64,000 bases of DNA from positions 1-64,000 of the forward strand of contig NZ_VCYH01000002.1 of assembly GCF_030464345.1 (NCBI RefSeq), given 5' to 3'. Under the pieces are notes generated by a model. That model was not told the DNA's origin and made no database searches. It was given only the letters and a program-made list of their open reading frames with translations. This DNA comes from Methanoculleus frigidifontis. Its GTDB lineage: Archaea > Halobacteriota > Methanomicrobia > Methanomicrobiales > Methanoculleaceae. A program made the translations under genes and the position numbers. Positions 229 through 15,367 of this stretch are shown piece after piece (position 1 is the stretch's first letter; each line of letters begins with the position of its first letter).

Positions 229-375
229 ATCCCTATTGTGCCCCCCTACTTTTACATTGTTATGTGTGACGGGAATCCAGGATTCGCAATTCTCTCTCAA
301 ATGCCCTTGTAATAATGGCGGCAAGTTGCTCACGGCTCATAATAGGGAGAGTAATGGGTTCATCGTAATTCCTAC

Positions 376-388
376 TTATTTATATTTT
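376..388 (+). promoter_or_regulatory. TATA box for the FAD oxidoreductase gene
   Basis: An AT-only stretch (TTATTTATATTTT) is centred about 26 bases before the ATG at 408. That is the normal archaeal TATA-to-start distance, so transcription should begin at or very near the ATG. This argues for a leaderless message and for ATG 408 rather than the upstream in-frame TTG at 387, which overlaps the box. Confidence 0.5.
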
Positions 389-407
389 GATATCTCCAAC
401 TAACCAT

Positions 408-1646
408 ATGGATGTAATAATTCTTGGGGGGGGACTGGCAGGTTGTAGTACAGCATATTACCTTAAACAAATGGGGAATGAAGTTACCATAGTTGAAAAA
501 AATAGAATTGGAGGCCTTTTAAACCAAATTCATTTCCAAAATTCAGAATGTTATTGTGATTTGGGCCCTCATTTTTTATTTTTAGACAAAGACATTGATG
601 ATGTAAGAAAGTTATTTTCGCAATATTCAGAATTAATCAAGGTAGAACCTTACGCATGCACGTTTCCCACGGGTAATTTAACAGAACCTCATGATTATCC
701 AATATCACATTCAAACATTGAGAGATGGATCGATAAAGAGCAAATAAAAAAAGAAATTAATCCCACCCCTAATTCATCAAATTTTGCCAATTTCAAGGAT
801 TTCGTGGTACAACAATGCGGTATGACACTATACTCGCGGTATTTTCAAAACTATACGAAAAAGTTCTGGGGAATGGATCCTGCTGACGTTGTTGGAGATT
901 GGATTGGAAAAAAAATCAAGTTTCCAAGAGGGGCTACACCTTTTTTCGGCGAAGATGAGGTCTTTTATCCAAAGGAAAAATATGAAAATATATTGAGCAA
1001 TATGATACAGGACTGCAACATAATATACAATGAAGTTGACAAAATTAAAACTTCACAAGGTAAGATTGTGTCAGTTGCAACAAAAGAAAAAAAGGAATTA
1101 AAAGGCGATATTTTTGTATCAACGGTCGAACCAAGCATCCTTGTAAATGATAGATTCCATATCCCTGAGTATCGCTCAATGATAATTGTTGCAATTTTAG
1201 TTAGTATTAAGTCAGACAAAATATTTAATGAAAATGTATTATGGGGATACTTTCCTAATCACTACCACTTCACACGATTAACCAATTATGCCCATATAGC
1301 TCAGATTCATAAGAGTGACTTAACTCTTGTATCCTTTGAATTCCCATGCTTTTTTCGGGACGGTTTGTGGGGAAAACCTGACGATTGGTTTCAAAGTTAC
1401 GTAACACTTTTTTTAGCTAATCAAAACGTGGTGTTTGAACTCATTGAGTGCAGTGTTCAACGAATAGAAAAAGCTTACCCGATTCCCTCCATCAGTGAAA
1501 TAAGGAAGTTTAATGCAATAGAAGAATATTTTCAAGATTTTTCAAATATTTCTTTCATTGGAAGAATAGGCAGTTATAAATATACTTGGATGAGAGACAT
1601 AGTTCAAGAGGCAAAAGCTCTCAGTGAGCACTTAACCTCCAGGTGA
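408..1646 (+). CDS. FAD-dependent sugar mutase / amine-oxidase-fold oxidoreductase
   Basis: The protein (412 aa) opens with a dinucleotide-binding motif, ILGGGLAG, at residues 5-12, followed by an acidic residue after the second strand (VEKNRIGG). The pattern CDLGPHFLF and the later YTKKFWGMDP resemble UDP-galactopyranose mutase and related FAD proteins that act on nucleotide sugars; this is family resemblance, and the substrate is not shown. The cytoplasmic enzyme probably supplies a modified sugar for surface polysaccharide. Its stop overlaps the start of the epimerase gene by four bases (GTGA), so the two are translationally coupled. The gene is AT-rich compared with the rest of the window, which suggests transfer. 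A phytoene-desaturase or protoporphyrinogen-oxidase-like role is an alternative. Confidence 0.75.
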   Translation: MDVIILGGGLAGCSTAYYLKQMGNEVTIVEKNRIGGLLNQIHFQNSECYCDLGPHFLFLDKDIDDVRKLFSQYSELIKVEPYACTFPTGNLTEPHDYPISHSNIERWIDKEQIKKEINPTPNSSNFANFKDFVVQQCGMTLYSRYFQNYTKKFWGMDPADVVGDWIGKKIKFPRGATPFFGEDEVFYPKEKYENILSNMIQDCNIIYNEVDKIKTSQGKIVSVATKEKKELKGDIFVSTVEPSILVNDRFHIPEYRSMIIVAILVSIKSDKIFNENVLWGYFPNHYHFTRLTNYAHIAQIHKSDLTLVSFEFPCFFRDGLWGKPDDWFQSYVTLFLANQNVVFELIECSVQRIEKAYPIPSISEIRKFNAIEEYFQDFSNISFIGRIGSYKYTWMRDIVQEAKALSEHLTSR

Positions 1647-2656
1647 ATCAAGTGAATTGTCTTGTTACTGGTGGGGCCGGCTTTATCGGTAGCCACATTG
1701 TTGATCAATTAATTGGAAGTGGTCATTCAGTTACAGTAATAGATGATTTATCTGGGGGCTATCTGAGTAATATCAATGAGAAAGCAAAACTCATCCAAAA
1801 GGATCTGACAGCCCTAAAAGCAGATGACCCAATTCTTAAGGACATTGAAATTATATACCACTTGGCTGCATTTCCTGCTGAAGGACTAAGCGTTTTTACG
1901 CCAGAATATGTGACCCAACGTAATTTAACCGCATTTATAAAACTACTTACCGCATCCATTAATAATCAGGTAAAAACATTTTCCTTTGCGTCAAGCATGT
2001 CGGTATACGGAAACAATCCGAATTGTCCTTTTGATGAAACCCATCCGCGAAATCCAACTGATCCTTACGGAATCTGCAAGGCTTCGTGTGAGCGCTATCT
2101 AGAGATATATGGGGTCGAATATAATTTTAACTATAACATAATCAGACCCCATAATGTATATGGCATTCGGCAAAACCTGAATGACCCTTACAGAAACGTC
2201 ATCGGCATCTGGATTAACCGGATTTTAAATGGGAAAAATCCTATAATATATGGAGATGGAGAACAACTTCGCGCTTTCAGTTATATTCAGGATGTTGCTT
2301 CTTGTATGGCGGAGAGTGTATTTATTGAGGATTCATTTGGTGAAATAATAAATCTTGGAGGAGCTAAGCCCTATAGAATTGTTGATGTTTGTTATTCAGT
2401 TATCGATGCTTTCAAATTAGATATCGAACCACTGTTCTATCCTCCACGACCAATGGAAGTAAAGAATGCTTATTGCACTACTGAAAAAAGTGAAAAAATT
2501 CTTGGATATAAAGAAAGCAAAAACCTTGAGGAAGGCATAAGTGAAATGGTTGCTTGGGCAAAAACGCTCCCAAAACCAAAATTCAAGTATTTGAGCAATA
2601 AGACATATGAAATTACTGAACATATGCCAAAGACATGGCTGAACAGGGAAATGTAA
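1643..2656 (+). CDS. NAD-dependent epimerase/dehydratase (extended SDR)
   Basis: This 337-aa protein has the extended short-chain dehydrogenase layout: a glycine motif TGGAGFIGSH near residue 9, an aspartate pair ending the second strand (VIDDLSGG), the serine of SSMSVYG, and the catalytic pair YGICK (YxxxK). Family members epimerise or dehydrate nucleotide sugars such as UDP-glucose; the precise sugar cannot be read from sequence. The length is normal. The start is a GTG overlapping the upstream stop; a second in-frame GTG lies three codons later. With the upstream FAD protein and downstream glycosyltransferase-like gene it forms a sugar-modification cluster, AT-rich and probably horizontally acquired. 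Confidence 0.85.
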   Translation: MNQVNCLVTGGAGFIGSHIVDQLIGSGHSVTVIDDLSGGYLSNINEKAKLIQKDLTALKADDPILKDIEIIYHLAAFPAEGLSVFTPEYVTQRNLTAFIKLLTASINNQVKTFSFASSMSVYGNNPNCPFDETHPRNPTDPYGICKASCERYLEIYGVEYNFNYNIIRPHNVYGIRQNLNDPYRNVIGIWINRILNGKNPIIYGDGEQLRAFSYIQDVASCMAESVFIEDSFGEIINLGGAKPYRIVDVCYSVIDAFKLDIEPLFYPPRPMEVKNAYCTTEKSEKILGYKESKNLEEGISEMVAWAKTLPKPKFKYLSNKTYEITEHMPKTWLNREM

Positions 2657-2736
2657 TAGACTTATCCCTATACATGAGATCATGAAGACAAAATGCCAAT
2701 AAGAATCTATTTGTTTTACAGTGGGGAAAGGTAACC

Positions 2737-3897
2737 ATGAAGATGATTTTTCTTTGCCATGACTTCACTGGTTCACCTGATATATATGACAGCACTCTTT
2801 GGAGTACAATAATGAATTGTCATATGGGTGTTCCTTTAGACATTAACGGTACTTCGTTATTTGAAAATTGGAGAAAATCGCTGGATTCATGGTTTTCACA
2901 ATATTCCAAATATTCACTATCGTGTACAGGTTACTGTCATCTATCTGGAAGCGTATTTCAAGATCATGTCCTAAACAGAGAAGAGAACTATACGCCCGAT
3001 ATAATGTTGTGTGAAAGGTTTGGGGGAAAAATTGTTTCTTTGGATGACTATGATATTATTTTCATCATATGTCAATCGGCACTTTATGGATATATCCGAT
3101 ATATCCGCTCAAGGTACCCTAATAAAATAATCATTGGAATTCAAGATGATTCTCTTCAGGAATTGCAGCTTTTTGATACGAAAGCAAAAATTGTAGTCCA
3201 TGACGCACTCTGCTCTCTCGATGGGTTCATTGCATATAACACGCAGATGAAGAGCTGGATGGAGGGCTTTGACACTAACACAGTCCTCTGTCACCATCCG
3301 ATAACAAAACAGTACATCGAGCAAATCCGGGATAAAACGGCATCCATTCATAAACAAGATCGAATATGCCTAGGCATCACCAACTGGAACTATGATCACA
3401 CGAACTTTTTATCTAATATTGTTGTCTTAAAAAATCTCCGCAAAGACTATCCAAGTCCATTAAAAGGCGAATTCATTGGGGTAAAGGACTACAAAATCGC
3501 TGATCTAAACTTGTTTGCATCGATATGCCCAGACATTGAAATTTTGGGATATCTAAAGGAAGATTATTATCAAACGTTGAAATCATACAAACTGATCATT
3601 CAGATGGGGACACGCGCGGTAGCAGGAAGACCGTGCGCTGAAAGTGCTGTTGTTGGCACACCTATGATTGGAACGAGGAATGCAGATATGCAAGAATATT
3701 GCTGGCCAGATATATCAATCAATGAATTTGATATAGCGCAGGCAATTACATTGGGAAAAAAGTTACTAAGCGATACCGAATTTTATGCGCAGATATGCGA
3801 AAAAGCATATGAAAATTTGGTACTTTTAGCCAAGGACACCCAATTATACACTAAAATGATTAATCAATGGATTGCAGATGATATGTCACTTAAATAA
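2737..3897 (+). CDS. Glycosyltransferase-like protein (GT-B fold suspected)
   Basis: This 386-aa protein has no signal peptide or membrane helix. Its C-terminal third contains GRPCAESAVVGTPMIGTRNA, which resembles the nucleotide-sugar site of GT-B glycosyltransferases, where a Glu precedes a glycine-containing loop; the N-terminal half is less familiar. I infer transfer of a sugar in the cytoplasm during surface glycan synthesis, in agreement with the two upstream sugar genes. A purine-rich AAAGGT lies five bases before the ATG and acts as ribosome-binding site. The gap to the upstream gene is 80 bases, so it may be in the same transcript. Function remains a weak call. Confidence 0.5.
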   Translation: MKMIFLCHDFTGSPDIYDSTLWSTIMNCHMGVPLDINGTSLFENWRKSLDSWFSQYSKYSLSCTGYCHLSGSVFQDHVLNREENYTPDIMLCERFGGKIVSLDDYDIIFIICQSALYGYIRYIRSRYPNKIIIGIQDDSLQELQLFDTKAKIVVHDALCSLDGFIAYNTQMKSWMEGFDTNTVLCHHPITKQYIEQIRDKTASIHKQDRICLGITNWNYDHTNFLSNIVVLKNLRKDYPSPLKGEFIGVKDYKIADLNLFASICPDIEILGYLKEDYYQTLKSYKLIIQMGTRAVAGRPCAESAVVGTPMIGTRNADMQEYCWPDISINEFDIAQAITLGKKLLSDTEFYAQICEKAYENLVLLAKDTQLYTKMINQWIADDMSLK

Positions 3898-4194
3898 GAG
3901 GTAACTGATCTCAACCAGAAGATTGTCACTTTAAGAACTCTCATTATCTTCCTCGGCTTCACTATCGTACTTGTATGAGACATATAAGTGATAATAATTA
4001 GTACCTGGCCATAGCTGTCCAATATGTTGTATTACACCTTCATTACGAATGTTGTTATCTCTAGAGCGCGGCGGATATTGAAATTGTCGTATGTTCTTAA
4101 ATATCTTTAGTAAATCTTTAACTATCATCAAAATTTTTTTGACGTAAAGTAGCAATAAGTTTATTTATTTTACCCTCCGTTTGCGCTACCCTCC
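3898..4194. other. AT-rich intergenic spacer with a doubtful small ORF
   Basis: The spacer separates the sugar genes from the insertion-sequence cluster. It is AT-rich, with T and A runs near 4130-4175. A minus-strand frame at 3931-4155 (TTG start; an internal ATG at 4128) would encode up to 74 aa with a basic hydrophobic start and an acidic end. It has no recognisable domain or ribosome-binding site. I would not call it a gene without homologues. Confidence 0.3.
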
Positions 4195-4230
4195 TGTCAA
4201 CGTCGGAATATCATTCCTCGCCCCACTTAA
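4195..4230 (-). repeat. Terminus of an IS21-type element (element X)
   Basis: The motif TGTCAACGTCGG starts at 4195 and is followed by a degenerate copy of the unit seen three times at 4439-4505 (GTCGG..TA..ATTCC..CCCCA). IS21-family ends begin with TGT and carry several transposase-binding repeats. It lies just past the 3' end of the istB fragment on the minus strand, where the right end of such an element belongs. Confidence 0.5.
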
Positions 4231-4238
4231 ATGCATCG

Positions 4239-4424
4239 TCAATTTTCTGCTAACCATTTGGAAACCTCATATCTGCCAGTTTCTCCTGCTCTGTCCATAA
4301 TTTGTGCTTTTTCCGGTCTTTCATGCGATAACTCTCCCCGGATATTCACGGTGGTACAGCGATGCAGGATCCGATCGAGCAGTGCCGCGGCGATGACATG
4401 ATCCTGGAAGATTTCTCCCCATCG
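4239..4424 (-). pseudogene. IstB-like ATPase, C-terminal remnant (IS21 family)
   Basis: Translated on the minus strand, this piece reads RWGEIFQDHVIAAALLDRIL and continues to a TGA at 4239-4241. The pattern RWGE..D...AAALLDR is the conserved C-terminal part of IstB, the AAA+ helper ATPase of IS21 elements. Only about the last 61 residues remain. The tail after NIRGE departs from the usual ESYR ending, consistent with a frameshift there. The 5' part is lost at 4424, immediately before another IS21-type terminus at 4432, so a second IS21-type element seems to have landed in this gene. Confidence 0.7.
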
Positions 4425-4431
4425 GCGAACG

Positions 4432-4507
4432 TGTCACCGTCGGGATAAGATTCCCCAGTTTCGTCGGTGTAAGATTCCCCACTTGCGTCGGAATAAGATT
4501 CCCCAGT
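4432..4507 (+). repeat. IS21-type left end with three direct repeats (element Y)
   Basis: A terminus TGTCACCGTCGG begins at 4432. Within it are three 19-base units at 4439-4457, 4463-4481 and 4487-4505, each GTCGGNNTAAGATTCCCCA, in direct orientation with an exact 24-base period. Such multiple terminal repeats are typical of IS21-family ends and are thought to bind the IstA transposase. They precede an istA-like N-terminus on the same strand, as expected. They are not CRISPR repeats: the spacers are only five bases and are similar. Confidence 0.7.
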
Positions 4508-4562
4508 TTCAGCGGAACAGCATTGCCCCGTCCGGTACCACAGAGTACCGGGTTGAAGCCGC

Positions 4563-4712
4563 ATGGTCGACGCGGAGGATTATTTCATGCTCAAGGATCT
4601 CGCTCGTGAACAGGAACAGACGACAGGACGGATCAACATTAGCGAACTCTCCCGTGAGACCGGATTCGATCGCAAAACCGTGAGGCACTACCTCGCTCGT
4701 GCCAGTCGGTAG
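4563..4712 (+). pseudogene. IstA-like transposase, N-terminal remnant (element Y)
   Basis: A 49-codon frame starts with ATG at 4563 and ends with TAG at 4710-4712. The peptide contains INISELSRETGFDRKTVRHY, a helix-turn-helix as at the N-terminus of IstA proteins, which bind the terminal repeats. The DDE catalytic domain is absent; the reading stops about 16 bases before the probable end of the IS256-type element at 4728. This is the 5' stub of an IS21-type transposase gene belonging to the repeats just upstream. Confidence 0.6.
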
Positions 4713-4727
4713 CGTCTCAAATTTTCT

Positions 4728-5938
4728 GTAATTTGCCCTGTGCCTTGAATCGCCTCTGATCATTCCTCGTCCATTTGCAAATACTTTTTGCCGGTGACCC
4801 AGTCCTCATTGACGTCCATGAGGATCGAGCCTACCAGTCGAAAGAGTGATTCTTCATTGGGAAATACCCCGACGACCTTTGTTCTGCGTTTCAGTTCCCG
4901 GTTTGTCCGTTCCATCATGTTCGTGGTTCGGATCCGTTTCCAATGCCGTTTGGGGAATGCGGTATAACTGATGAGTCCCGGGAGGAACCGCTCGATGGTA
5001 TTGGCCGCCTTCCGGTATCCGCGTTCGTTCAGATCATCGGCGGCGTCCTGGAGTTTCTGCTCATCACCGTATGCTTCCCGCAGACGTTCAACCACCTCTT
5101 TCTGGCCTTTCCTGGGAATATTCTTCAGAACCGCCCGCGTGCAGTGGACTTCACACATCTGCCAGGACGCCCCGAGGAAGGCGGCCTCGGCCGCTTTCTG
5201 GATGCCGGCATGGCCGTCGGAGATGATCAGCTGGACGCCGGTGAGTCCCCGGTCTTTCAGGTCTTCGAACAGTCCCGACCAGAATTCCTCATTCTCGCAG
5301 TCGGTGATCCGGGCTCCCAGGATCTCCCGGTAGCCGTCGTCACGGACGCCGGCAACCACCAGAACTGCTTTGGTGACGTATCGCGCTCCGTCGCGGACTT
5401 TGAAGTAGGACGCGTCCACGTAGAGGTAGGGGATCGCCTGCTCGATCGGGCGCATGAGAAATTCGCTGACTTGGTCGTCGAGTTCTTTTGCCATCCGGGA
5501 GACGGAGGCAGACGAGAGCTGTTCAATGCCAAGATGCTGGACGATAGCCTGAACGCGCCGGGTCGAGACACCCTGCAGATAGGATTCGACAACAGCATTC
5601 ACCAGTGCCTTCTCCACCCGGGCGTAGCGCCCGAAGACCTGCGTCTCAAACGGAAATTCACGAAACTGCGGCTTTTTCAGCGTTGCATTCCCATACCGGG
5701 TCTTTAGAGACCGTTCTTTGTAGCCGTTGCGGTGAGCCTTCCGCGTCTCGGATCGTTCATATTGCCCTGCTCCGACCTGCTGGTCGGCCTCATGCCGCAG
5801 CACCTGGTTCAGGAACCACGTGAGGACACTCAGCATGCCGGCCTGCTCATCGGAAAGATAATCTTCTATGAATGCTAACGGTATCATTGCCCTGTTTCTC
5901 CTTTCTGCAATTCAAGGTTGGATTCAGGGCATCTTTAC
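4728..5938. mobile_element. IS256-family insertion sequence
   Basis: The intact transposase gene is flanked by short imperfect inverted repeats: GTAATTTGCCCTG at 4728-4740 and, reading the minus strand, GTAAAGATGCCCTG at 5938-5925. They differ by one inserted base and two substitutions. I saw no convincing target duplication, so the outer limits are approximate. It sits between the istA stub and the IS110-type element. Confidence 0.5.
4760..5887 (-). CDS. IS256-family (MuLE) transposase
   Basis: This 375-aa protein is full length for the family. The DDE catalytic residues can be placed: Asp in YLYVDASYFKVRDG, Asp in LIISDGHAGI and Glu in TTNMMERTNRELKRR. The Cys/His pattern CEVHCTRAVLKNIPR in the insertion domain is also standard. 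Members move by a copy-out mechanism through circular intermediates and cause 8-9 base target duplications; that is family knowledge. The ATG at 5887 is preceded on the minus strand by AAAGGAG. Because the reading frame is intact and carries all catalytic residues, the copy could still be active, unlike most of its neighbours. Confidence 0.93.
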   Translation of the reverse strand: MIPLAFIEDYLSDEQAGMLSVLTWFLNQVLRHEADQQVGAGQYERSETRKAHRNGYKERSLKTRYGNATLKKPQFREFPFETQVFGRYARVEKALVNAVVESYLQGVSTRRVQAIVQHLGIEQLSSASVSRMAKELDDQVSEFLMRPIEQAIPYLYVDASYFKVRDGARYVTKAVLVVAGVRDDGYREILGARITDCENEEFWSGLFEDLKDRGLTGVQLIISDGHAGIQKAAEAAFLGASWQMCEVHCTRAVLKNIPRKGQKEVVERLREAYGDEQKLQDAADDLNERGYRKAANTIERFLPGLISYTAFPKRHWKRIRTTNMMERTNRELKRRTKVVGVFPNEESLFRLVGSILMDVNEDWVTGKKYLQMDEE

Positions 5939-6152
5939 TTTCCATGAAAAACCCGGTACATCGGTGAACTCTCTCATCTGCTTGTGTTGGCCATGATCTT
6001 ACGTTGTTCCTGGGTGAAACTTATGTGGATAGAGCTGGCACTGACGAGCACGACTATCATTTCTCCTGGAAACAGTTGTTCTAGGAGAGAGCCTTCACTC
6101 AAGCAGGCAACCGGATTGAGGTTTCTCCTCAAGACTCCCGGATAAAACTTTG
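5939..6152. other. Non-coding spacer between IS256 and IS110 units
   Basis: No credible gene is present on either strand. The stretch lies downstream of the IS110-type transposase and probably holds the right end of that element, but IS110 elements lack clear inverted repeats and I cannot mark the boundary. Confidence 0.4.
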
Positions 6153-7414
6153 TCAGGCTGGATCCGGATCTCGCTTATTGAGGAGATGTACTGCCTCTGC
6201 TACCATGCCGAGCACCTCTTCGAGCGTGTAGTGTGGTGAGACAGGAATACGAATCGTGTGGACCGTTTTGGTTTCTGTCTGGCTGGGATCACTATACCTA
6301 TCGACATACTCCTCATCATTGACGATGAGATGCCAGATGATGACGATCATTTTACGTGCCAATGCAATGGTTGCTTTCCCTGCTCCGATCACGCGTTTTT
6401 TCGTTTCATACCATTCACGGAGGAGATTCTTCCGTGATTTTGCAGCAGCGTGAGCGGCCTGGGTGATCATCCCCCGTGCATGGCGAGAACCTCGTTTCGT
6501 AATGGATCGCTTCACGATATGGTTTGCGGATTGATGGACTCTCGGTACAATGCCAATCCAGCTGGCAAGTTTCTCACCGGAGATGAAATCCCTGAAATTT
6601 CCGATCTCAGCGATAAGAGTGATAGCAGTGATATCCCCGACTCCGGGAACCGTTCGGAGAATTGCATACTCTCGGGGATAGTTTTGAAGCGTATATGCTT
6701 GAACCTCTTCGGTAATCTGGCCAATTTCTTCATCAAGGTGTTTGATGACACGGAGGCAGTGACGCAGCTGCAGGAGAGCACCGCGTGACATGTTCTGATC
6801 GATCAGTGCACGAATCTCATTTTCCTTCTTTAACCGTGTCCGCAGTGGAATGGACTTGAGAATCTCGTCAGCAGATGCACCACGAAGGATGCCATGCAGA
6901 ATGCGCTGTCCCGAAACACCAAAGATGTCGGTGAGAATCGTTGCCAGAGGAAAGAGTTCACCGTCAAGAATACTGTGGATCCGATTTTTGATATCTGTCC
7001 GTTTTTCTACAAGAAAATGTCTCAGCCGAACCATCTTCCGGAAATCGCGATGGTAGCGAGGCATCACCCGAGAGGGGGAGATCATCCCTTTGAGGGCAAG
7101 CTGCGCGATCATCTCGGAGTCGATCTTGTCGGTCTTCTTGTGGGAGAGAACTTTGATGTCGTGAGCATTTCCGACAAGCACCGGAACGTGATCGATCAAG
7201 AGGTCATAGATATGAACCCAGTAGTCGGATGTGGACTCACAGGCAACCACATCGCATTTATGTTCGAGGATCCAAGCCTTCAGTGCAAGTGAGTCTTGCA
7301 CAGTTCGTTCAAACCGCTGCTGGATCTTGGTTCCATTTGCCCAGAAAGTGTAGCTACGATGAACTTCTTATGGATATCAAGGCCAGCGGCGACATGATAG
7401 TCGCGTGGTGTCAC
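6153..7414 (-). pseudogene. IS110-family transposase with N-terminal frameshift
   Basis: IS110 recombinases have an N-terminal RuvC-like DEDD domain and a C-terminal Tnp20 domain with an essential serine. The long downstream frame (to 7301) covers KTDKIDSEMIAQL and the C-terminal PGVGDITAITLIAEIG plus RGSRHARGMI. The true start is a GTG at 7412-7414 behind a perfect GGAGG; it encodes an N-terminus with AGLDIHKKFIVATLS, which holds the first catalytic Asp. That frame shifts near 7342-7348 (CTTTCTGGG on the minus strand) into the frame reading WANGTKIQQRFERTV. One extra base, or two missing, separates the halves, so the copy is probably dead unless the shift is programmed or a sequencing error. 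Confidence 0.85.
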
Positions 7415-7660
7415 GTTTTATTCCTCCACGGAGAATGTCTGGGCAGATGAATTTCCTTGAAGGTCCCTTTTCCATACGCGATCCTGGTCGCAGTTCAGCC
7501 TTCGAAGCAATTCAACGGTTAGTTTTACAGACGGAGTCATGCTCCCAAAGTAAAGCAACCTGCTCTGCCCGGAAAGGGAGTATGTGTACGGGGGTTCTTG
7601 TGGTTTTTCATCAGTTAAGCCTGAGGCTCCCTGCCTCGTAAGGGTTTTACAGAAATTTCG
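7415..7660 (-). ncRNA. Candidate IS110 left end / bridge-RNA region
   Basis: About 245 bases without a gene lie between the IS110 start codon and the interrupted istA fragment. In IS110-group elements the long non-coding end upstream of the recombinase encodes the structured bridge RNA that pairs with target and donor DNA (established for IS621 and relatives). Position and length fit. I could not fold it or locate the guide loops, so this is an inference from placement alone. Confidence 0.3.
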
Positions 7661-8065
7661 TTACGCTACCTCCTGGGCAATACAGACGTCCCTGAAGACG
7701 GTATGCTGTTTCCATCGCCGAACCTCCCGCTTTACGGTGGAGTAGCTGATCTCTGTGCCGGCATACGTGAGTAGCTGAAATATCTGGTGTGCATTCAGTC
7801 GCTGTTTCTTGGGTTTTTTCTGATTTTCTTCAAGATACCTATGTATTTTAGTGACGACAGCATCAGACAGTGCCGGTTTTGTTCTGTGCAGATTTCTCGG
7901 TGAGGGAAAGATCCTGTTGCCAGTGTCGTTCTGACAATCTTCAAGTTTATTCAGATATTTGGTGACGGTATTTCGGGAAATTCCCATGATATTTGCCACT
8001 TTTCTGCATGACCCGGTTTCCTGATAGAGCTGACGAATGCGGTCAACATCTTCCATTGTTTTCAC
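7661..8065 (-). pseudogene. IstA transposase, N-terminal part (IS21 element Z)
   Basis: The 134-residue product begins MKTMEDVDRIRQLYQETG and has the helix-turn-helix SCRKVANIMGISRNTVTKYL, then the segment YSTVKREVRRWK, as in the first third of IstA proteins. It ends where IstA normally enters its DDE domain (after FRDVCIAQEV), so the catalytic core is missing. The break coincides with the presumed left boundary of the IS110-type element, which suggests that IS110 landed inside this gene; the remaining istA and istB were later lost or lie elsewhere. The terminal repeats at 8117-8178 belong to this element. Confidence 0.8.
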
Positions 8066-8116
8066 CTCCGTGAGTATGTTTTGCAGGCAGTTTCAGTTAC
8101 TGCCGGTGGTACTGAG

Positions 8117-8178
8117 GTGGATCACTTTTTAGTGAGCGTTTTCGCGAAAAGTGGATCAATTCTTAGTGAGCGTTTACA
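8117..8178 (-). repeat. IS21-type terminus with two direct repeats (element Z)
   Basis: Two units of about 25 bases, GTGGATCA..TTAGTGAGCGTTT, occur at 8117-8141 and 8151-8175 with a 34-base period. Read from the minus strand the element begins TGTAAACGCTCACTAAG at 8178. It lies just upstream of the istA fragment, the right place for an IS21 left end. The repeat class is unrelated in sequence to the one at 4432-4507, so at least two IS21 lineages are present. Confidence 0.7.
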
Positions 8179-8796
8179 TATGACCAGAGAACCCTCTCTG
8201 AGCCGGTCGCGTGACTGCCGATAGGTCTTCTTGAAGTGGGTCTGGTCATTGAGATTGCCGGGTTCGATCGTCATCCCGATCGGGACATTGATCGGGTCGG
8301 CAAGTTCTGTGACGCCGACGGTGATCTGTTTCTTATCCGGCCGGTGATCCCGGCTGTAGCCATACTTTCCGAGCTTCGCCGCAGTGCCGTGGAGGACGAT
8401 GCTGGTCCAGTCCATGTTGATGTCGGTATGCTCAAAGTCATACCGCGCAAAAAGGACGTCCTGGATGTCGGAGATGATCTCATCCCGGTTGGCACCCAGG
8501 GTTTCAAGGACATGGTAGAGGGTTCGTTCGCTGAAGGATGGGAGGTTGAATTCGGCACGAACTTCCGGTCGGGTGATCCAGTCGTGGGATCGCTTGATGC
8601 TGAAGTTATCCGTCAGTTTGTAGCTGATCAGGGCGCGAAGCAAACTATTGATATCGATACCCCGCGTCTTGTGTTTCCCGAAAACATCATGAAAGTTCAG
8701 GACGTCATACAGCCGTTCAACGAGGAAAATGGTGCCGATAGGAAAGGATATATTGTCAGTCGGCTCAATGTCATTGGTTCTTAGTCGTGTTTGCAT
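8179..8796 (-). pseudogene. IS1634/IS4-type transposase truncated by an IS21 insertion
   Basis: The N-terminal 206 codons carry features of IS1634-like DDE transposases: RALISYKLTDNFSIKRSHDW, the first catalytic aspartate in DINMDWTSIVLHG, and the following VGVTELADPINVPIG. The coding sequence is cut after REGSLVI, exactly where the second aspartate motif (usually FD.G) should follow; the next bases are the TGTAAACGC end of element Z. An accidental extension of 18 codons runs into that element. The rest of the gene was not found in the window. The start ATG is at 8796. Confidence 0.8.
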
Positions 8797-9068
8797 TTTA
8801 GTCGATCAAACATCACTGAGAACACTCTTATGTCTTGCCAACTGGCAAAGTTGGGCTGCAGGATCTCACGGATCGTATCCATGACTGCAAGTAGGTCGAC
8901 GAAACTGCGATAGTCCAGTTCCAGATCTTCTTTAAGCAGCAAGAGAACCAGCAGTTGGTGCTGGGTGTAGGTTTTCTTCGAGTATTTGCAGGAATAGAGC
9001 GGAATGTGGGACGCCTTGACGGCAGACAGAGCTGCCTCGGTTAATCTGATATACTGGGACGATGACAC
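8781..9068 (-). pseudogene. DDE transposase, N-terminal fragment
   Basis: The reading starts with GTG at 9068 and encodes SKKTYTQHQLLVLLLLKEDL and YRSFVDLLAVMDTIREIL, the conserved N-terminal helical region of archaeal IS4/IS5-like transposases. After REILQ at about 8860 the sequence no longer looks like the family; it runs into the 5' flank of the IS1634-type gene, so that element probably inserted here. The catalytic domain is gone. The last few codons overlap the start of the truncated IS1634-type gene. Confidence 0.6.
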
Positions 9069-9075
9069 TAAGAGT

Positions 9076-9115
9076 AGCTCCTTGCTTTTGTCTTTGGTCG
9101 GATAAACAAGGAGCT
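9076..9115. repeat. Inverted repeat upstream of the transposase fragment
   Basis: AGCTCCTTG at 9076-9084 is exactly inverted as CAAGGAGCT at 9107-9115, separated by 22 bases. It may be part of the end of the IS element whose fragment starts at 9068, or a hairpin downstream of the zinc-ribbon gene. Confidence 0.5.
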
Positions 9116-9168
9116 CCCATTCTCATAACAACTTCGCTGAACTCACCGGGCAAGCCCAAGTACGATTT

Positions 9169-9363
9169 CTACAAAGCCAATATTTCTTTCAGTATCCTTG
9201 AAGCTGCATATCTAATTGCTGGATTATCATCTTCTAGCCCCTTTTTTAAATTTTCTTTTCGATTTTCACTTCCCTTTAAATGATTTGTCGCCTTACAATT
9301 TGAGCATGTTTGACATTCAATGTAGTTTCTTGTCCCACAGATGTAGCAATCATACCACTTCAT
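9169..9363 (-). CDS. Small zinc-ribbon protein with HEAT-like tail
   Basis: This 64-aa protein has two pairs of cysteines, CYIC at residues 6-9 and CSNC at 20-23, spaced as in a zinc ribbon, with an extra Cys at 17. The C-terminal half (NPAIRYAASRILKEIL) looks like one HEAT-type helix pair. The start ATG lies eight bases after the stop of the radical SAM gene, and its ribosome-binding site AGGTGA overlaps that stop codon, so the two are almost certainly co-transcribed and coupled. I do not recognise the family. It may recruit the enzyme to RNA or protein; that is inference. It is AT-rich like its partner. Confidence 0.6.
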   Translation of the reverse strand: MKWYDCYICGTRNYIECQTCSNCKATNHLKGSENRKENLKKGLEDDNPAIRYAASRILKEILAL

Positions 9364-9371
9364 AGAATCAC

Positions 9372-10208
9372 CTAGTATGGAGATAGCAGTTGACCACAGC
9401 CAGCCTCAATATTCAGTCCAAGGCTATCAAATACAACTGTTATTATCCCGTTGTTTTCCAATTCTTCTTTAAATAGATCTCTTTTTTCAATTGGACTCTT
9501 TGAAAGATTAATATTCGGAATTGGATTGTATGAGGCAAGAGTGAGGATAATATCCCTGTCACGCAACAGATTAATTAAATTTTCCAAATCTGTTCTCTCA
9601 TCATTCACCCCTTTTATCATAGTGTAGTTTAGACGTACCCACGTTCCGGTCACTTCTGAAAAGTAGTCGAGAGAACTCATAAGTTCTTCTAATGGATAGA
9701 TTCTATTTATTGGAATAAGTGCATTTCTTGTCTCATTATCAGCTGCATGCAGCGATACTTGAAGTTTAATATGCAGCTTATTATCTGCCAGTTGTCGAAT
9801 TTTTGGTGCCACTCCAACTGTTGATATGGAGCAATACAAATCCTCATCAATCGTATCCCTAACAAAATTCATGGCTTTAACTAATTCTTCGTAGTTATTT
9901 AGTGGTTCACCAATGGAATCAAAATGCCACTGATTATCAAGAGTAGTGGGAGTCAGTAAATCAAACATTTGAATGTACTGATCAGCAATTTCACTCCATT
10001 GAAGGGGTCGGACATATGGGTAATTGGATGTAGCACACATCTTGCAGTTTAAATTGCACCCAACATGGGTTGACGAGCAAAAGTGACTCATAAAGTCATC
10101 CCATATTACAACTAAACTCTCAATTTGATGACTATCTGACGTCTCCCAGATGAATTTAACGCACTGATCTGATGAGTTCAGCTGCTTTTTCAATTTTAAT
10201 CTGTTCAT
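9372..10208 (-). CDS. Compact RlmN/Cfr-like radical SAM methyltransferase
   Basis: This 278-aa protein has the radical SAM cluster motif C51-x3-C55-x2-C58 (GCNLNCKMC). Other marks are those of RlmN/Cfr: DSIGEPLNNY (compare GEP in RlmN), LHAADNETRNALIPINRIYP, and a C-terminal AGCGQL. Two cysteines needed for the RlmN methyl-transfer mechanism have counterparts: C44, seven residues before the cluster, and C271 in CGQL. RlmN methylates C2 of an adenosine in 23S rRNA and some tRNAs. The usual N-terminal helical domain is missing, so the protein is about 80-100 residues short, and the substrate may differ. AT-rich sequence next to insertion sequences suggests horizontal transfer. Confidence 0.8.
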   Translation of the reverse strand: MNRLKLKKQLNSSDQCVKFIWETSDSHQIESLVVIWDDFMSHFCSSTHVGCNLNCKMCATSNYPYVRPLQWSEIADQYIQMFDLLTPTTLDNQWHFDSIGEPLNNYEELVKAMNFVRDTIDEDLYCSISTVGVAPKIRQLADNKLHIKLQVSLHAADNETRNALIPINRIYPLEELMSSLDYFSEVTGTWVRLNYTMIKGVNDERTDLENLINLLRDRDIILTLASYNPIPNINLSKSPIEKRDLFKEELENNGIITVVFDSLGLNIEAGCGQLLSPY

Positions 10209-10569
10209 AGAAAAAAAACGGAAACTCTGTATTTAATAATTACGAAATGCGTGCCCTATATAATCTCGGCTGCTTTGTTGCACAATCCCCCAAGGGTTCC
10301 TCAACAGATATTCCTGCGGCGGCTTCGCTCGAGCCACCGTAGCAAACAGCGTGGTGTAAAAGTTTACTTTCATCCTAATCTCACGGAACATTCTCTCCCG
10401 GAACTTTGCGCGCACCCCTTCCCCACAATTCGTTTGAAACTGAAGAAGTCCCTTTTGACCCGAACTCCGCATGATTTAGGGCATATACTTCCTTCTTCGC
10501 GTTCTTTTTCGGCATTCCCTGATGCAGAAGGAAAGATCTATATATTCATAATCCCTAATATTATATCAT
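10209..10569. other. Intergenic region, no clear gene
   Basis: About 360 bases separate the divergent radical SAM and transposase genes. On the minus strand TATTAAATA near 10230-10240 is a plausible TATA box for the radical SAM operon. The rest includes short open frames of unlikely composition and probably holds the left end of the downstream insertion sequence. No inverted repeat matching the right side was recognised. Confidence 0.35.
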
Positions 10570-11994
10570 ATGGATGCGTGGGTCCGGGCATGGCTGGAGG
10601 AGCAGCGGCGGCAAGGGGAGAGGTGCCTTGAGATCAAGGAGATCCAGGGCAAACCCTACGTCTACCGGTCGACGAGCGTTTACGACAAGACAACCAAATC
10701 GCCGAAGAAGGTCAGCACATACCTTGGCAGGCTCACGAAAGATCAGGGTCTCCTCGCCAAAGGAAAAAGAGGGCAGAGCATCCCGATGTCTCCCCGCAGC
10801 GTTCGTGAATACGGGAATGCCGCTCTGATGGCCGAGGAGTTCGGGGAGGTGCTCCCGGTTCTCCGGGAAGCGTTCCCGACCTGCTGGCAGGAGATCGTTG
10901 CTCTCACCTTCACCCGGATCGCCGGGTATACCCCACTCTCGCGAGTGGGGGATGCCTGGGAGAAACTCGACAACACCCTTGCCCTCTCCGCGGACTGCGA
11001 CCCCCGCACCCTCGCCCGGGTTCTCACCGAAGTCGGCGGCGACCGCGCCGCCCAGCAGAGGGTGTTCCAACATCTCTCCTCGCAGGCGCAGCAGCTCGTC
11101 TACGACCTCTCGTTCATCTTCTCTCACTCCGATACCGTGAACCTCGCCGAGTTCGGCTACAACGCCGAAGGCGTCTGGTTGCCGCAGGTCAACATCGCAC
11201 TCTTCAGCGCGACGGACACCGGCCTTCCCGTGATGATCCGTGCCCTGCCGGGCTCGGTCAGGGATGTCGCCACCCTCGTCGGATCCCTCGCCAAGATCGA
11301 TACCGCCAGGACGACCCTCGTCCTCGACCGGGGTTTCGTCTCGGAGAAAAACGAACAGATCCTGACCGAGGCAAAGATCCCGTTCGTCCTCCCCCAGCGG
11401 CGCAACAGTGTCCGGTATGCAACGCGGATCCATCTCACCGACCACTTCTTCTACCACAAACGGCTCATTCATGCCGGAAGATGCGAGGTTGATGGCTTGA
11501 CACTCTACCTCTACGAAGATGCCGATCTCGCGGTGGAAGAGCAGAAGACCCTCTACCGCCTGCTGGAGGAAGGAGAGATCGATCGGGAGACGTTGAACCA
11601 GCGGCTGAAGCGTGCCGGCAGGGTCCTGATCCTCTCCTCGATCACGGCACCGCCGCAGGAGATCTATGAACTGTATAAGTCCCGAAATATGGTCGAGAAC
11701 CATTTCGCTGCGTTCAAGAGCCTGATTCAGGCAGACAAACTCTATCTCCGGGATGCCACGGCAGTCTTCGGCCATGTCTTCATTGGATTCCTCTGTCTCT
11801 ATCTCTACTGCCGGATCCTGAACCGGATCAAGCAGGCAGGGCTGTCAGCCCACCTCTCACCACAGGGACTGCTCCTGAAACTCTCAAAGGTGTATGCAGT
11901 GATCTACGAGAAGGAGAGACGGATGACCGAGGTGCCAAGACAGGTGCGGGGAATCGCCGAGAAGCTCAACCTCGGCATATTCCCTAATAGGTGA
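10570..11994 (+). CDS. IS1634/IS4-type DDE transposase
   Basis: This 474-aa protein is complete. The catalytic triad can be placed: Asp in FSHSDTVNLAEFGYN, Asp in TLVLDRGFVSEKN and Glu in YKSRNMVENHFAAFKS (the Y-x2-R-x3-E pattern of the IS4 superfamily). An N-terminal region with YLGRLTKDQG is also usual in IS1634-like proteins. Unlike the AT-rich neighbours it has high-GC codons like the chromosome, so it is well adapted to this host or its relatives. The start ATG at 10570 directly follows an AT-rich stretch with no ribosome-binding site. Probably an active element; its terminal repeats were not identified. Confidence 0.88.
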   Translation: MDAWVRAWLEEQRRQGERCLEIKEIQGKPYVYRSTSVYDKTTKSPKKVSTYLGRLTKDQGLLAKGKRGQSIPMSPRSVREYGNAALMAEEFGEVLPVLREAFPTCWQEIVALTFTRIAGYTPLSRVGDAWEKLDNTLALSADCDPRTLARVLTEVGGDRAAQQRVFQHLSSQAQQLVYDLSFIFSHSDTVNLAEFGYNAEGVWLPQVNIALFSATDTGLPVMIRALPGSVRDVATLVGSLAKIDTARTTLVLDRGFVSEKNEQILTEAKIPFVLPQRRNSVRYATRIHLTDHFFYHKRLIHAGRCEVDGLTLYLYEDADLAVEEQKTLYRLLEEGEIDRETLNQRLKRAGRVLILSSITAPPQEIYELYKSRNMVENHFAAFKSLIQADKLYLRDATAVFGHVFIGFLCLYLYCRILNRIKQAGLSAHLSPQGLLLKLSKVYAVIYEKERRMTEVPRQVRGIAEKLNLGIFPNR

Positions 11995-12685
11995 GGAGTT
12001 TGGGTTCTATCGTATGCACCACCTATAAGCACCTGATATAACGGTGCTCCTCGCTGCAGTGGTGCTGCACCAGGTCAAGAAGGCAGGTGAACATCCGATC
12101 GTCCTGCACCAACTCGTCGGGGATTTCCAGATCGAGAACCCGAACGTGTACGACTGCACAGCATAAAAAACGAGGGAGGAGGGCATCCCCCTCGCTCAGA
12201 CTCATGCCCACCGCCCATCAGAACAGTATGGGCATGAGCCGTATTCTATCGTGTGCCCGGGAACAGGAGATGCTGCTCGCTTCCGCAAAACCCAAAAAGA
12301 GCCCCCGCATTTCATCGCTCTCATCAGGCTTCCGGCGGCCTGCCGGCATGCACCTTCCGGAGCAGGGCTCCCCCACCCTGTCCGCGCCCGCTGTTGCATG
12401 CCGACCCTGCCGTACATCAACCTCTCCCGGACACACACACCCTTACCGCACTCACTATACTTAAACGTTCAAGTGGCCTGGAAGGCGGGTTGCTCCACGA
12501 CGACCCGGTGCACGGTGCAGGGACAAACCACCGGATACACCGGTATAGCAGGGAAAATACTCCCGAAAACAGCACGGACCAAAAAGGAGCGGCCACTGCA
12601 GTGAGTGCTGCAGCACGGGGGTGTGGGAATGGCAGAAGGCTGCCCTCACCGAAACCACCCGTGCCGGCCGTTCACAAACCGCGTA
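11995..12685. other. Long non-coding region with a hairpin at 12201-12238
   Basis: No convincing gene is present in about 690 bases. A perfect 10-base inverted repeat (CTCATGCCCA at 12201-12210, TGGGCATGAG at 12229-12238) forms a hairpin with an 18-base loop. Just before it, CGAGGG...CCCTCG near 12170-12195 can also pair. A minus-strand frame at 12023-12211 (62 aa) is possible but shows no domain and runs through the hairpin. The right end of the upstream insertion sequence is presumably near 12000. Confidence 0.4.
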
Positions 12686-13264
12686 TCAGCTCGTATTCGC
12701 GGCACCCATCGTCTCGTTCGCCGTCATATTCCCGGCACCGAGATCGACCGTCGGCGGAACCATCACCGCGTCGATGACGTGAATGACTCCATTGCTTGCC
12801 TCGATGTCACTCTGGATAACAATCGCATCGTCGATGGTAACAGCACCGTCCGTGGCGTTCACCGAGAGCGTGCTGCCCTCAAGGGTCTCGAGCGAATTCA
12901 ACTGTGCAAGATCCGATGCCATATACCGGCCGGGTACGACGTGGTAGAGCAGGATCTGCTGCAGATCGCCTTCAGGGTCCTGCATCAGCTGGTCGAGCGT
13001 GCCCGCCGGCAAAGCCTCGAATGCGGCGTCCGTCGGTGCAAAGACAGTATACGGCCCTTCCTGGCTGAGAGCGTCGGTCAGGTTTGCAGCCTGAACCGCT
13101 GCAACCAGCGTCGAAAACTGAGGATCTGCGGCAGCGATCTCAACGATCGTCTGGCCAGTGGTTTCATTTCCGGTTTCGTTTGCGGGCTGCTCCGTAGTAC
13201 ACCCGCAGCATAGAACCAGCAGCCCGACAATCAGGGCTACCAGCACCACCATAGAATACTTCAT
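12686..13264 (-). CDS. Fasciclin (FAS1) domain lipoprotein
   Basis: The 192-aa protein starts with a hydrophobic segment and the lipobox-like LLVLCCGC, so it is likely a secreted, lipid-anchored protein on the outer face of the membrane. After an Asn/Thr-rich linker come the FAS1 hallmarks: [16 protein letters not shown] near residue 70, LLYHVVPG, and the final [15 protein letters not shown]1 domains mediate adhesion. The start was set at 13264, not the in-frame ATG 33 bases upstream, because GGAGGGGGG lies just before it. A TATA box at 13317-13327 leaves a leader of about 30 bases. It is a paralogue of the fasciclin part of the gene at 18295. Confidence 0.9.
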
Positions 13265-13316
13265 TTCTACCCCCCTCCGTATCAAACGGATATACACTGC
13301 GCTACCATGCGCTCCT

Positions 13317-13327
13317 CATATAAAAGG
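13317..13327 (-). promoter_or_regulatory. TATA box of the fasciclin lipoprotein gene
   Basis: Read on the minus strand the sequence is CCTTTTATATG, a good archaeal BRE/TATA. It is centred 58 bases upstream of the chosen start, leaving a leader of roughly 30 bases that contains the ribosome-binding site. Confidence 0.5.
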
Positions 13328-13900
13328 GTGACTCCTCCGAAAGCGGGGAATGGTTGCTTCCCGGCACCGTCACACCCACGATGCCCTGCCGTTGTGCAGC
13401 CGGATCATCGATATCAAAATCCGGTAGTGCTCCAGCATATACCTGATACGTGATCTCAGAGAATCCGACCGAAATTACGCTATCCACCAACCCGCGTTCA
13501 TGACAAAAAATAACCTGGGGGAAAGATTTCCATTATCGGGCTCTGGTGAAGCCCTATTCCGGCTGTCATTCTTCCCTGACGAGATTGATGCCGGACCAGG
13601 CCTTTTTTCTCACGCATGCCCGCATGCCGTGGACCGTGGTGGCTATCGCCATAGGGGTGGGGCTGACGGGGAGGGGTTTTCCCCTCCCCTGTCTTACGCA
13701 AAGATCCTCACGCCTCACCCCCCACCTCGCCCGGCCTCCGGCCTCCTCCCCCCTCCCCAGGGGGCGGGGGCAGTCATGGCGATACCCAGGGGAAAGCCGT
13801 GCCCCGGGGTGCAATCAATCGGGAACACCCGGATGCGATCGCAACAAAGGGAGTATCAGTTGTTTCGCAGGGCACTGCCCAACATCCGGACGAATACCAT
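13328..13900. other. Non-coding region with a perfect GC-rich hairpin
   Basis: No gene with credible codon use is seen. The most notable structure is GGGGAGGGG at 13668-13676, a TTTT loop, and CCCCTCCCC at 13681-13689. C-rich tracts follow to about 13770. A minus-strand frame at 13302-13490 overlaps the promoter of the fasciclin gene and was not accepted. The hairpin could end transcription of the thioredoxin-NHL gene, though no T-run follows it on the minus strand. Confidence 0.4.
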
Positions 13901-15367
13901 CTATTTCCAGATCGACAGCGTGGAGACAACGCGTTGATCGGGATCGTATACCCGGACGGCATGGTTGCCGGTGTCGACGATGTACCAGAGTCCCTGCAGG
14001 AAGACGAGATCGCCCGGCTCGTTCAACCGTACGTCACCGGCGAGCCCGTCGCGGTATCCCTGCGTACCGCTGCCCGCCATCGAAAGAACCCATGATGTCC
14101 GCGTATTGAGCCACTTCACCTTGTGGTTTTTTGTATCGGCAATATAGACTATGCCATCGGTGTAGGAGATGCCGACCGGGTGGTTGATCCGGGCCATCGG
14201 GGCGACGGTGTCGAAGTCTCCGAAGTCGGAGAGGGCGTGACCGATGAGTGTGGTTACCATTCCTCTGCAGATATGCCGGACCGCCGACGCATTGCTGTCT
14301 GCAACATAGAGCGTGCCGACACCGTCGGTGGTGATTCCGGTCGGCATGGCAAAAGCAGCGTCCACGAGCGGACCGTCCCGAAGGGCTTCCACTCCCGTGC
14401 CGGCATACGGCCGGATCTCGCGCGTTGCAAGATGCATCCGCCAGATCTGATCCGCACCGGCCATAGCGATATAGAGATACTCCCCGAGCAGCGTCAGATC
14501 CCAGGGGGAGTTCAGCGCAGCATCGGTGCCCCACCCCCCGTCACTTCTCTCCGCCGCCTGAAGACCGGTACCGGCAACGGTCTCCACCGTCTCTTCCTGC
14601 AGGGACACCTTTCTGATGAGGTGGTTGCCGGCATCCGCAACATACAGGGCGTCCTCACCGGCATCGTAGACCAGACCCTGAGGCATGTACATCGCCGCGT
14701 CGGTGAAACTGCCGTCCTGTCTCCCGGGCCTGCCCGAACCGGCAGCTGCGAGGATTCTTCCATCCGGCCTGACGGCAAGGATACGGTGATGATTCGAATC
14801 GGCAATAAAGAGTCTGCCACCCCCCAGATCCGCTGCAATCTTTCCCGGATAGTACAGCGTCCCCCCCGCTGCCACGTCCTTTATAAGCCCGAACTTCATC
14901 CGTTCCGTATTCAGGATTCCCCGCTGTGCAGATTCCCTGCTCACCTTCTCGACCATCGGGCCGAGCCGCTCATAGACGCCCTCCCCGACCATCTTGCCGA
15001 CGACGTTTCCCTCCGGATCGATCAGAATAAATGTAGGCCATGACGATATCCCGAACTGCCGCCAGAGGGTCAGATTGCGGTCGACAACCACCGGGTGCTC
15101 AAAATGCGCATGGAGAATCGCCTCGCCGATGTTTGCGGTCACCTTCTCACTCTCATACCGCGTGGAATGCACGCCGATAACGACCAGCTCGGGATAGTGT
15201 TCTACAAGCCGGTGGAGATCAGGCATCATCTGGATGCAGCTGACACAGCTGAATGTCCAGAAACCGAGAAGCACAATCTTACCCTGCAGATCCCGCAGAT
15301 GGAGCGGCCGGTCAGTATTGAGCCACTCGAGATCGCCGGCAAATTCAGGGGCAGACAAGAGGTTCAT
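13901..15367 (-). CDS. Thioredoxin-fold / NHL-repeat protein (NHLRC2-like)
   Basis: The 488-aa protein joins an N-terminal thioredoxin-like domain (residues 1-150) to a six-bladed NHL beta-propeller (about 175-485). The redox pair is visible as FSCVSC (C41 and C44), followed by a cis-Pro-type loop at SSWPTFILIDPEG. The propeller repeats follow the pattern MYMPQGL...LYVADAGNHLIRKV, MPTGIT..LYVADSN and HPVGIS..VYIADTKNHKVKWL. The architecture matches NHLRC2-type proteins found in all domains of life, whose substrate is unclear. No signal peptide is visible, so it acts in the cytoplasm. It stands alone, with short spacers on both sides. Confidence 0.88.
   Translation of the reverse strand: MNLLSAPEFAGDLEWLNTDRPLHLRDLQGKIVLLGFWTFSCVSCIQMMPDLHRLVEHYPELVVIGVHSTRYESEKVTANIGEAILHAHFEHPVVVDRNLTLWRQFGISSWPTFILIDPEGNVVGKMVGEGVYERLGPMVEKVSRESAQRGILNTERMKFGLIKDVAAGGTLYYPGKIAADLGGGRLFIADSNHHRILAVRPDGRILAAAGSGRPGRQDGSFTDAAMYMPQGLVYDAGEDALYVADAGNHLIRKVSLQEETVETVAGTGLQAAERSDGGWGTDAALNSPWDLTLLGEYLYIAMAGADQIWRMHLATREIRPYAGTGVEALRDGPLVDAAFAMPTGITTDGVGTLYVADSNASAVRHICRGMVTTLIGHALSDFGDFDTVAPMARINHPVGISYTDGIVYIADTKNHKVKWLNTRTSWVLSMAGSGTQGYRDGLAGDVRLNEPGDLVFLQGLWYIVDTGNHAVRVYDPDQRVVSTLSIWK

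Follow-up and report, generated by a model that had tools for sequence, protein, structure and literature searches.

The window analysed here comprises 64,000 nucleotides from the start of contig NZ_VCYH01000002.1 of Methanoculleus frigidifontis. Within it, a cassette of ~1.09 kb (9179 to about 10268) lies between two disrupted IS5-type insertion sequences (IS) and carries a gene for a compact radical SAM enzyme and the truncated remainder of a second gene. Its features are the following:

10230 to 10239, minus strand: TATA-box-like TTATTAAATA, at -31 to -22 from the ATG of the enzyme gene
9372 to 10208, minus strand: compact RlmN/Cfr-like radical SAM enzyme, an intact frame of 278 amino acids (ORF and translation)
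9367 to 9373, minus strand: AGGTGAT, Shine-Dalgarno-like, overlapping the TAG stop of the enzyme gene (9372-9374)
9169 to 9363, minus strand: downstream ORF of 64 amino acids, with its ATG at 9363
9179 to 9363, minus strand: native part of the downstream ORF (61 codons and two bases), in which residues 3-23 form a RanBP2-like zinc finger and residues 31-61 a single HEAT repeat
9169 to 9178, minus strand: end of an IS5-type element within the ORF, supplying the third base of codon 62, A63, L64 and the stop

RlmN is the C2-methyltransferase of 23S rRNA A2503 and tRNA A37 (TIGR00048), and Cfr is the C8-methyltransferase of 23S rRNA A2503. The enzyme in the cassette is an apparently intact relative of such bacterial RNA-methylating enzymes, minus the usual RNA-gripping domain. 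In profile searches, the RlmN model TIGR00048 matches it with an E value of 4.5e-61 and 206.8 bits from profile position 68 to 342, whereas no family other than RlmN/Cfr-type models exceeds 30.4 bits; this bears out the RlmN/Cfr-like catalytic core of the original prediction. The score lies under the curated cut-off (290 bits), in part because profile positions 1-67 have no counterpart in the enzyme. Cfr models give 142.8-147.7 bits and do not reach their cut-offs of 468-550; a Cfr-type resistance gene was rejected on these scores. An anti-phage defence gene was also rejected: the enzyme has no PADLOC match, and the small downstream ORF matches only PDC-M03B (E 0.023).

RlmN and Cfr have been described as one-chain enzymes in which an HhH2 domain grips folded RNA. 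A cryo-EM preprint on Cfr (PMC13001441) describes a region of positive charge in this N-terminal domain as crucial to the binding of rRNA. The enzyme has a single radical SAM domain with the CX3CX2C motif, and has no N-terminal HhH2 domain, the RlmN profile aligning from position 68 only; the first residue of the protein falls at the expected end of that RNA-binding domain. The absence of the RNA-recognition domain, also part of the original prediction, does not stem from a misplaced start. Only 8 further open codons lie upstream of the ATG (whole open frame, 286), and an ordinary RlmN with an overlooked N-terminus was therefore rejected; by eye, the upstream ORF at 10233-10472 resembles the C-terminal end of the IS5-type transposase encoded in L030, a stretch of contig C7.

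The fold was predicted with AlphaFold from 46 sequences (mean pLDDT 94.4), and the model opens with the strands that come before the radical SAM barrel. A PDB structure search with this model returned RlmN or Cfr as all of its top 11 matches, with query-normalised TM values of 0.94 to RlmN-type 6fz6, 0.86-0.91 to E. coli RlmN and 0.76 to Cfr 9p0p. The enzyme is acidic (pI 4.8), and the net charge of its core (-14) is below that of all 29 canonical cores (mean +3, minimum -11). The mean for 19 viral compact cores is -5.9, and the lowest is -18.

Comparison with 29 canonical RlmN/Cfr cores and 18 phage-type cores locates the key residues of the active site:

10077 to 10079, minus strand: C44 codon, equivalent of E. 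coli RlmN C118 and Cfr C105, the proton-abstracting cysteine according to PMC13001441; Cys in 29/29 canonical and 18/18 phage-type cores
10035 to 10058, minus strand: codons of the [4Fe-4S] motif C51-X3-C55-X2-C58; Cys in 29/29 canonical cores
9429 to 9431, minus strand: F260 codon, at the place of Cfr Arg327; R in 29/29 canonical and F in 18/18 phage-type cores
9396 to 9398, minus strand: C271 codon, equivalent of Cfr C338 and RlmN C355, the methyl-carrier cysteine; Cys in 29/29 canonical and 18/18 phage-type cores (crosslink at Cfr Cys338 as given in PMC13001441)

All five key cysteines (C44, C51, C55, C58 and C271) are thus kept, in agreement with the original prediction. With C44 and C271 the enzyme has the two conserved mechanistic cysteines that define class A radical SAM methylases according to PMC9692996, and from its sequence the chemistry is likely to be kept. 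Among 32 residues invariant in the 29 canonical cores (counted with the enzyme left out), it keeps 26 and has changed six (Q48H, F57M, M97D, G98S, N223T and R260F); F57M and M97D are unlike all 45 other sequences in the alignment (A7). The equivalence of F260 and Cfr Arg327, which is the ribose contact of A2503 according to PMC13001441, derives from the 11-residue distance to the carrier cysteine. The enzyme is a new, orphan, compact RlmN/Cfr variant with a changed substrate site: this site is unlike that of RlmN, and the substrate may differ.

The two-cysteine mechanism of RlmN and Cfr, as laid out in PMC13001441 and PMC9692996, can be mapped onto C271 and C44. Most likely, the enzyme would use this two-step chemistry, in which a first SAM would methylate C271 and a second would be cleaved at the cluster, giving a 5'-deoxyadenosyl radical that would activate the methyl-Cys. 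The methylene would become attached to an sp2 carbon in the target molecule, an adenine being the most likely one, and C44 would then resolve the crosslink. The enzyme may have a substrate other than that of RlmN, since it has lost the HhH2 domain, has an acidic core and, like the compact enzymes of phages, carries Phe where Cfr has the Arg that contacts the ribose. Because the bare core is acidic and has no Arg260, it is unlikely to grip a large RNA alone; its substrate is probably a nucleotide or an RNA that is either small or pre-presented, or else the enzyme needed a partner, such as the protein once encoded by the second gene. The host 23S gene contains the A2503-equivalent sequence, which does not discriminate. 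A review from 2020 places m2A, m8A and m2,8A in Bacteria (PMC7694415), and a 2024 paper describes m2A in plants (PMC10838301).

As originally predicted, RlmN is not a usual gene in the archaeal lineage of the host, because the enzyme finds a match in 1/232 genomes of its own class (E 1e-15) and in 1/392 genomes drawn from its own phylum (E 1e-10), in each case the host itself, and because only M. jannaschii matches TIGR00048 among the four archaea of a control set. In that whole set of 14 control genomes, 11 match the model and 10 are over the cut-off. Scans of three bacterial phyla (361, 378 and 380 genomes, at thresholds of 1e-44, 1e-47 and 1e-47) gave 2, 1 and 0 matches to the enzyme at 35-36% identity, the third phylum being without a positive control. 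An alignment-based genome scan gave at least 590 stretches and 571 relatives, from which the best 80 of 571 were taken, so that there may be cellular relatives closer than these; when the enzyme alone was used to look for close relatives in viral and genome contigs, the scans led nowhere. The highest identity to the enzyme among the matches listed is 37-38%, to a canonical RlmN from a Thermotogae MAG.

A second, distant RlmN-like protein is encoded in the same genome (L002:1486-2430; contig C13 of G000, near 44695-45549). It scores 46.6 bits, has no equivalent of C44 and lies directly after an ORF that we named, by eye, thioredoxin-reductase-like.

In an unrooted tree of 53 rows built on core columns, the enzyme joins canonical RlmN and Cfr(B) at 98/88, yet stands outside them at 93/91, on an end branch of 1.86 changes per column (1.86-2.44 in two trees). 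Eighteen phage-type rows form a separate group (100/99). An approximately unbiased (AU) test rejected none of four alternative placements, with Cfr(B) (p 0.371), with Thermotogae RlmN (p 0.433), with the 18 phage-type rows (p 0.237) or with a pair of viral sequences, L129 and L007 (p 0.519). The enzyme thus did not fall among radical SAM enzymes that lack methyltransferase activity, an outcome that would have spoken against the affiliation originally proposed; its exact position would be just outside RlmN and Cfr, a placement that the AU test does not favour to the exclusion of the other four.

The bare core is not unique. In one viral-contig scan, 176 of 199 candidate stretches encode compact RlmN-like enzymes without the N-terminal domain. 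The enzyme has 58 open codons before its first cluster cysteine (50 residues and the 8 upstream codons), and phage-type frames have at most 80 in 86/99 cases (at least 105 in 10/99), whereas canonical frames have at least 96 in all 92 that are uncut (95 were examined, and 3 are cut by a contig end). From these counts, the bare-core anatomy of the enzyme is that of the phage-type compact RlmN-like proteins, and the aligned phage-type proteins start at nearly the same point. The phage protein family phrog_27142 matches the enzyme at 2.7e-10, and the best BFVD match of the enzyme is a 284-amino-acid phage 'COG0820' protein (TM 0.89). We also compared columns in which at least 90% of the 29 canonical and at least 90% of the 18 phage-type cores have differing states. 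Of these six columns, the enzyme agrees with the phage-type cores in three (S98, N194 and F260), with the canonical cores in one and with neither group in the other two; for the ten columns diagnostic at 80%, the numbers are four, three and three. The viral pair L129 and L007 has Y at position 260, where the enzyme has F.

These likenesses raise the possibility that the enzyme is itself of phage or virus type, brought in by a mobile element, and that its original targets, in an infected cell, were nucleotides or RNA of the host or the virus. Such an origin overlaps with the explanation that we prefer and differs from it in source and substrate. Compact enzymes are common in viral contigs, the anatomy, the phage state at three of the six diagnostic columns and the best BFVD match speak for a phage source, and the AU test rejects neither the phage clade nor L129 and L007. 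However, identity to phage-type proteins is about 31% or less, lower than that to canonical RlmN among the matches listed; the free tree joins the enzyme to canonical RlmN/Cfr; no viral gene was recognised among the scanned neighbours of the enzyme; and parallel change at three sites could account for the shared states. We regard a phage origin as a tentative alternative with clearly less than even odds.

The phage compact group is widespread in the viral contigs (L037-L116, L129-L195, L004-L006, L010 and L011), has Phe instead of Cfr Arg327 in 18/18 cores and is acidic on average. Among literature on RlmN/Cfr-like enzymes and phages, taken at the level of titles and the beginnings of abstracts, we found no description of a compact phage RlmN, which does not amount to absence from print; the term 'RlmN' does not occur in the text of one jumbo-phage review. 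A small ORF with two CxxC pairs, a zinc ribbon of another kind than that of the cassette, lies directly upstream of the phage compact enzyme at 9/97 loci, against 2/301 other large ORFs at the same loci. The nine loci (L055, L059, L065, L066, L113 and others) include several close relatives, and we treat them as a lead only. In a Moorella phage (L008:3809-4633 and 4649-4771) and a crAss-like phage (L009:3812-4600 and 4603-4734) the RlmN-like protein is split in two: the C-terminal 40-43 amino acids, with the methyl-carrier cysteine in CGQL, form a separate ORF, and the C44 equivalent is absent.

In the archaeal cassette, the enzyme gene and the downstream ORF meet in TAGGTGATTCTATG, in which AGGTGAT stands 3 bases before the second ATG and, as originally described, runs over the enzyme's TAG stop. 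The motif presumably fits the archaeal anti-Shine-Dalgarno sequence, and at the level of sequence the coupling of the two reading frames is confirmed. The TATA-like TTATTAAATA would suit a leaderless archaeal transcript. No structured RNA beside the genes reached the Rfam gathering threshold in window positions 1-14000.

Residues 3-23 of the small ORF fit the pattern W-x2-C-x2-C-x3-N-x6-C-x2-C, which we take to be close to the consensus of RanBP2-type zinc fingers; the Pfam RanBP2 model stays under its cut-off (E 0.16). HEAT repeats of alphaRep proteins match residues 31-61, with whole-sequence E values of the chains down to 8e-11 and each single repeat weak, and Pfam HEAT gives E 0.0021 and 18.6 bits, under the cut-off of 23.5. 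Structure prediction for the small ORF from its sequence alone gave a poor model (pLDDT 60). The product is basic (pI 8.7, net charge +3). The ORF thus exists as originally predicted, but the frame is not an intact microprotein, because its end lies in an IS. The elements around the cassette are the following:

8122 to 8796, minus strand: IS1634-type transposase fragment (87.7 of 100 bits), adjoining the left IS5-type fragment
8784 to 9178, minus strand: left flank, the 5' part of an IS5-type element, with a transposase fragment at 8781-9068 (NCBIfam IS5_2, E 3.6e-7, 30 of 140 bits; 42.6% to an annotated IS5 transposase) and a copy in contig C1
10268 to 10460, minus strand: right flank, the 3' end of another IS5-type element, continuing at 12005-12143 (78-79% to two copies in contig C7; boundary by eye, about 10265-10272)
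10463 to 12007, plus strand: IS1634-type element that interrupts the IS5-type element on the right (96% to C9:3560-5104; transposase 161 bits)

Window positions 9102-9181 are identical to 1248-1327 of C1, a contig of the same genome, and positions 8937-9104 match C1:1-168 at 99%. The end of another element abuts at the edge of the copy in C1, so that this pair alone would not fix the border of the IS. An inverted repeat, GGCTTTGTAGAAA, begins at window position 9178, inside the ORF, and at C1:1324, and a diverged copy of the IS in contig C9 has the variant GGCTCTGTTGAAA at 11899. In an annotated IS5 element on a Methanomethylovorans plasmid, GGCTCTGTAGAAA stands 108 bases before the transposase start and GGCTTTGTAGAAA at the other end; in the window, 110 bases separate 9178 from the start of the transposase fragment at 9068. 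From these repeat positions and the similar spacing to the transposase start we place the end of the IS at 9178, and therefore A63, L64 and the stop belong to the element and the frame is cut directly after the first HEAT repeat. Across the genome the inverted-repeat pattern has two matches on one strand, and a reversed control pattern has one; this search found no second end of the left IS5-type element. On the far side of the second copy of this IS end, at C1:1350-1600 (L028), another cysteine-rich frame is visible by eye on the minus strand.

Read in this way, the 64-amino-acid ORF is an IS-truncated zinc finger-HEAT fragment and no complete gene, and its appearance as a microprotein is an artefact of the truncation. 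The ancestral second protein was very likely longer than 64 amino acids. We consider that the coupled second gene probably encoded a zinc finger and HEAT-repeat protein that the IS cut after one repeat.

The original prediction went further and proposed that a finished 64-amino-acid zinc-ribbon protein binds the bare enzyme and gives it RNA recognition in trans, in place of the lost HhH2 domain. The overlap of the Shine-Dalgarno-like motif with the stop suggests coupling, the zinc part is near the RanBP2 type, of which some members bind RNA, and the small protein is basic where the enzyme is acidic. Against this, the ORF is truncated by the IS, the RanBP2 match in Pfam is no better than the value given above, and no relatives of the small ORF were detected in the genomes searched or in the close-relative scan of viral contigs. 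ORFs with two CxxC pairs lie directly downstream of the enzyme at 2/99 phage-type and 0/92 canonical loci, and none of these 99 and 92 loci has a directly downstream ORF with the HEAT pattern. The alleged partner pair, whose co-occurrence had been expected, is in no other genome searched, a weak test given that no close relatives of the enzyme are known. Guidance in trans as such is possible but unsupported, and as a finished replacement of the lost domain the 64-amino-acid protein is very improbable.

The composition of the locus agrees with the AT-rich, IS-flanked operon first described. In 60-bp steps from 9160 to 10239 the G+C content is 25-43%, compared with 52-65% in 1-kb steps over 11001-64000; values of 36-38% also occur at 1-4000. 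This other AT-rich block (387-3897, 36-38% G+C) contains a UDP-galactopyranose-mutase-like ORF, a sugar epimerase and an unassigned third ORF, and probably represents surface glycan genes. IS110 and IS256 transposases lie farther left of the cassette, and the C7 copy of the right-hand IS5-type element (L030) encodes an IS5 transposase (233.7 bits). A simple composite transposon was rejected: the flanking IS5-type fragments have the same orientation yet do not match each other.

A stretch so full of IS elements, with a broken partner ORF and about 60 bp between the enzyme ATG and the right-hand IS, could also hold a decaying remnant of an ordinary bacterial rlmN that was transferred, shortened at its 5' end and rendered non-functional. 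The long end branch and the six lost canonical invariants would agree with this. However, 278 codons are open, the five key cysteines are kept and the predicted fold is confident, and the start coincides with that of the phage-type compact proteins and not with a random break. We therefore consider a dead remnant unlikely.

We favour the explanation that the locus is a foreign-looking, AT-rich fragment carrying an imported, orphan and compact radical SAM methylase, of class A and of the RlmN/Cfr superfamily, together with a partner gene cut by an IS, and give it a probability of roughly 0.6. The gene, its residues, its architecture and the truncation are seen directly and the fold is predicted; the chemistry, the kind of substrate, the role of the partner and the foreign origin are interpretations. 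Counting against this explanation are the RlmN score under the cut-off, the six changed invariants, the AU result, the assignment of m2A, m8A and m2,8A to Bacteria and the chance that an enzyme with a cut operon partner is itself decaying. If the enzyme works, an enzyme without the HhH2 domain in a lineage that has yielded no other RlmN would imply that the chemistry of class A enzymes can be redirected, either to other substrates or through other proteins, and it draws attention to the large phage group of bare RlmN-like cores. A broader and speculative proposal, to which we assign low odds, is that the bare-core enzymes of phages and of this archaeal fragment form a functional class A group with a substrate other than A2503 or tRNA A37. 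Its members would have an aromatic residue for the ribose-contacting Arg and would leave recognition to separate proteins, here a coupled zinc finger-HEAT scaffold now broken by the IS and in some phages the ORF of the upstream zinc ribbon.

Compared with known systems, the enzyme shares with RlmN the CX3CX2C motif, both mechanistic cysteines, 26/32 invariants and TM values of 0.86-0.94 to solved RlmN structures. Unlike RlmN, it is without HhH2, scores 206.8 of the 290 bits required, has six changed invariants and a net charge of -14, and stands outside the canonical group on the tree. With Cfr it has the catalytic anatomy in common, and it is 32-35% identical to Cfr(B), the value varying with the alignment; it differs in its scores (142.8-147.7 against 468-550), a TM of 0.76 (9p0p), the lack of HhH2, Phe in place of Arg327 and a position on the tree that is not sister to Cfr(B). 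The compact RlmN-like proteins of Vibrio, Salmonella, Aeromonas and Stenotrophomonas phages (phrog_27142, 'Fe-S-cluster redox domain-containing') resemble it in domain limits, start, both cysteines and S98/N194/F260, whereas they are about 31% identical or less, form their own clade and have no zinc finger-HEAT ORF downstream. The small ORF, finally, fits RanBP2 fingers in spacing (residues 3-23) and HEAT/alphaRep proteins in one repeat (residues 31-61), and differs from them in that its single repeat is cut by an IS and its Pfam scores are below cut-off.
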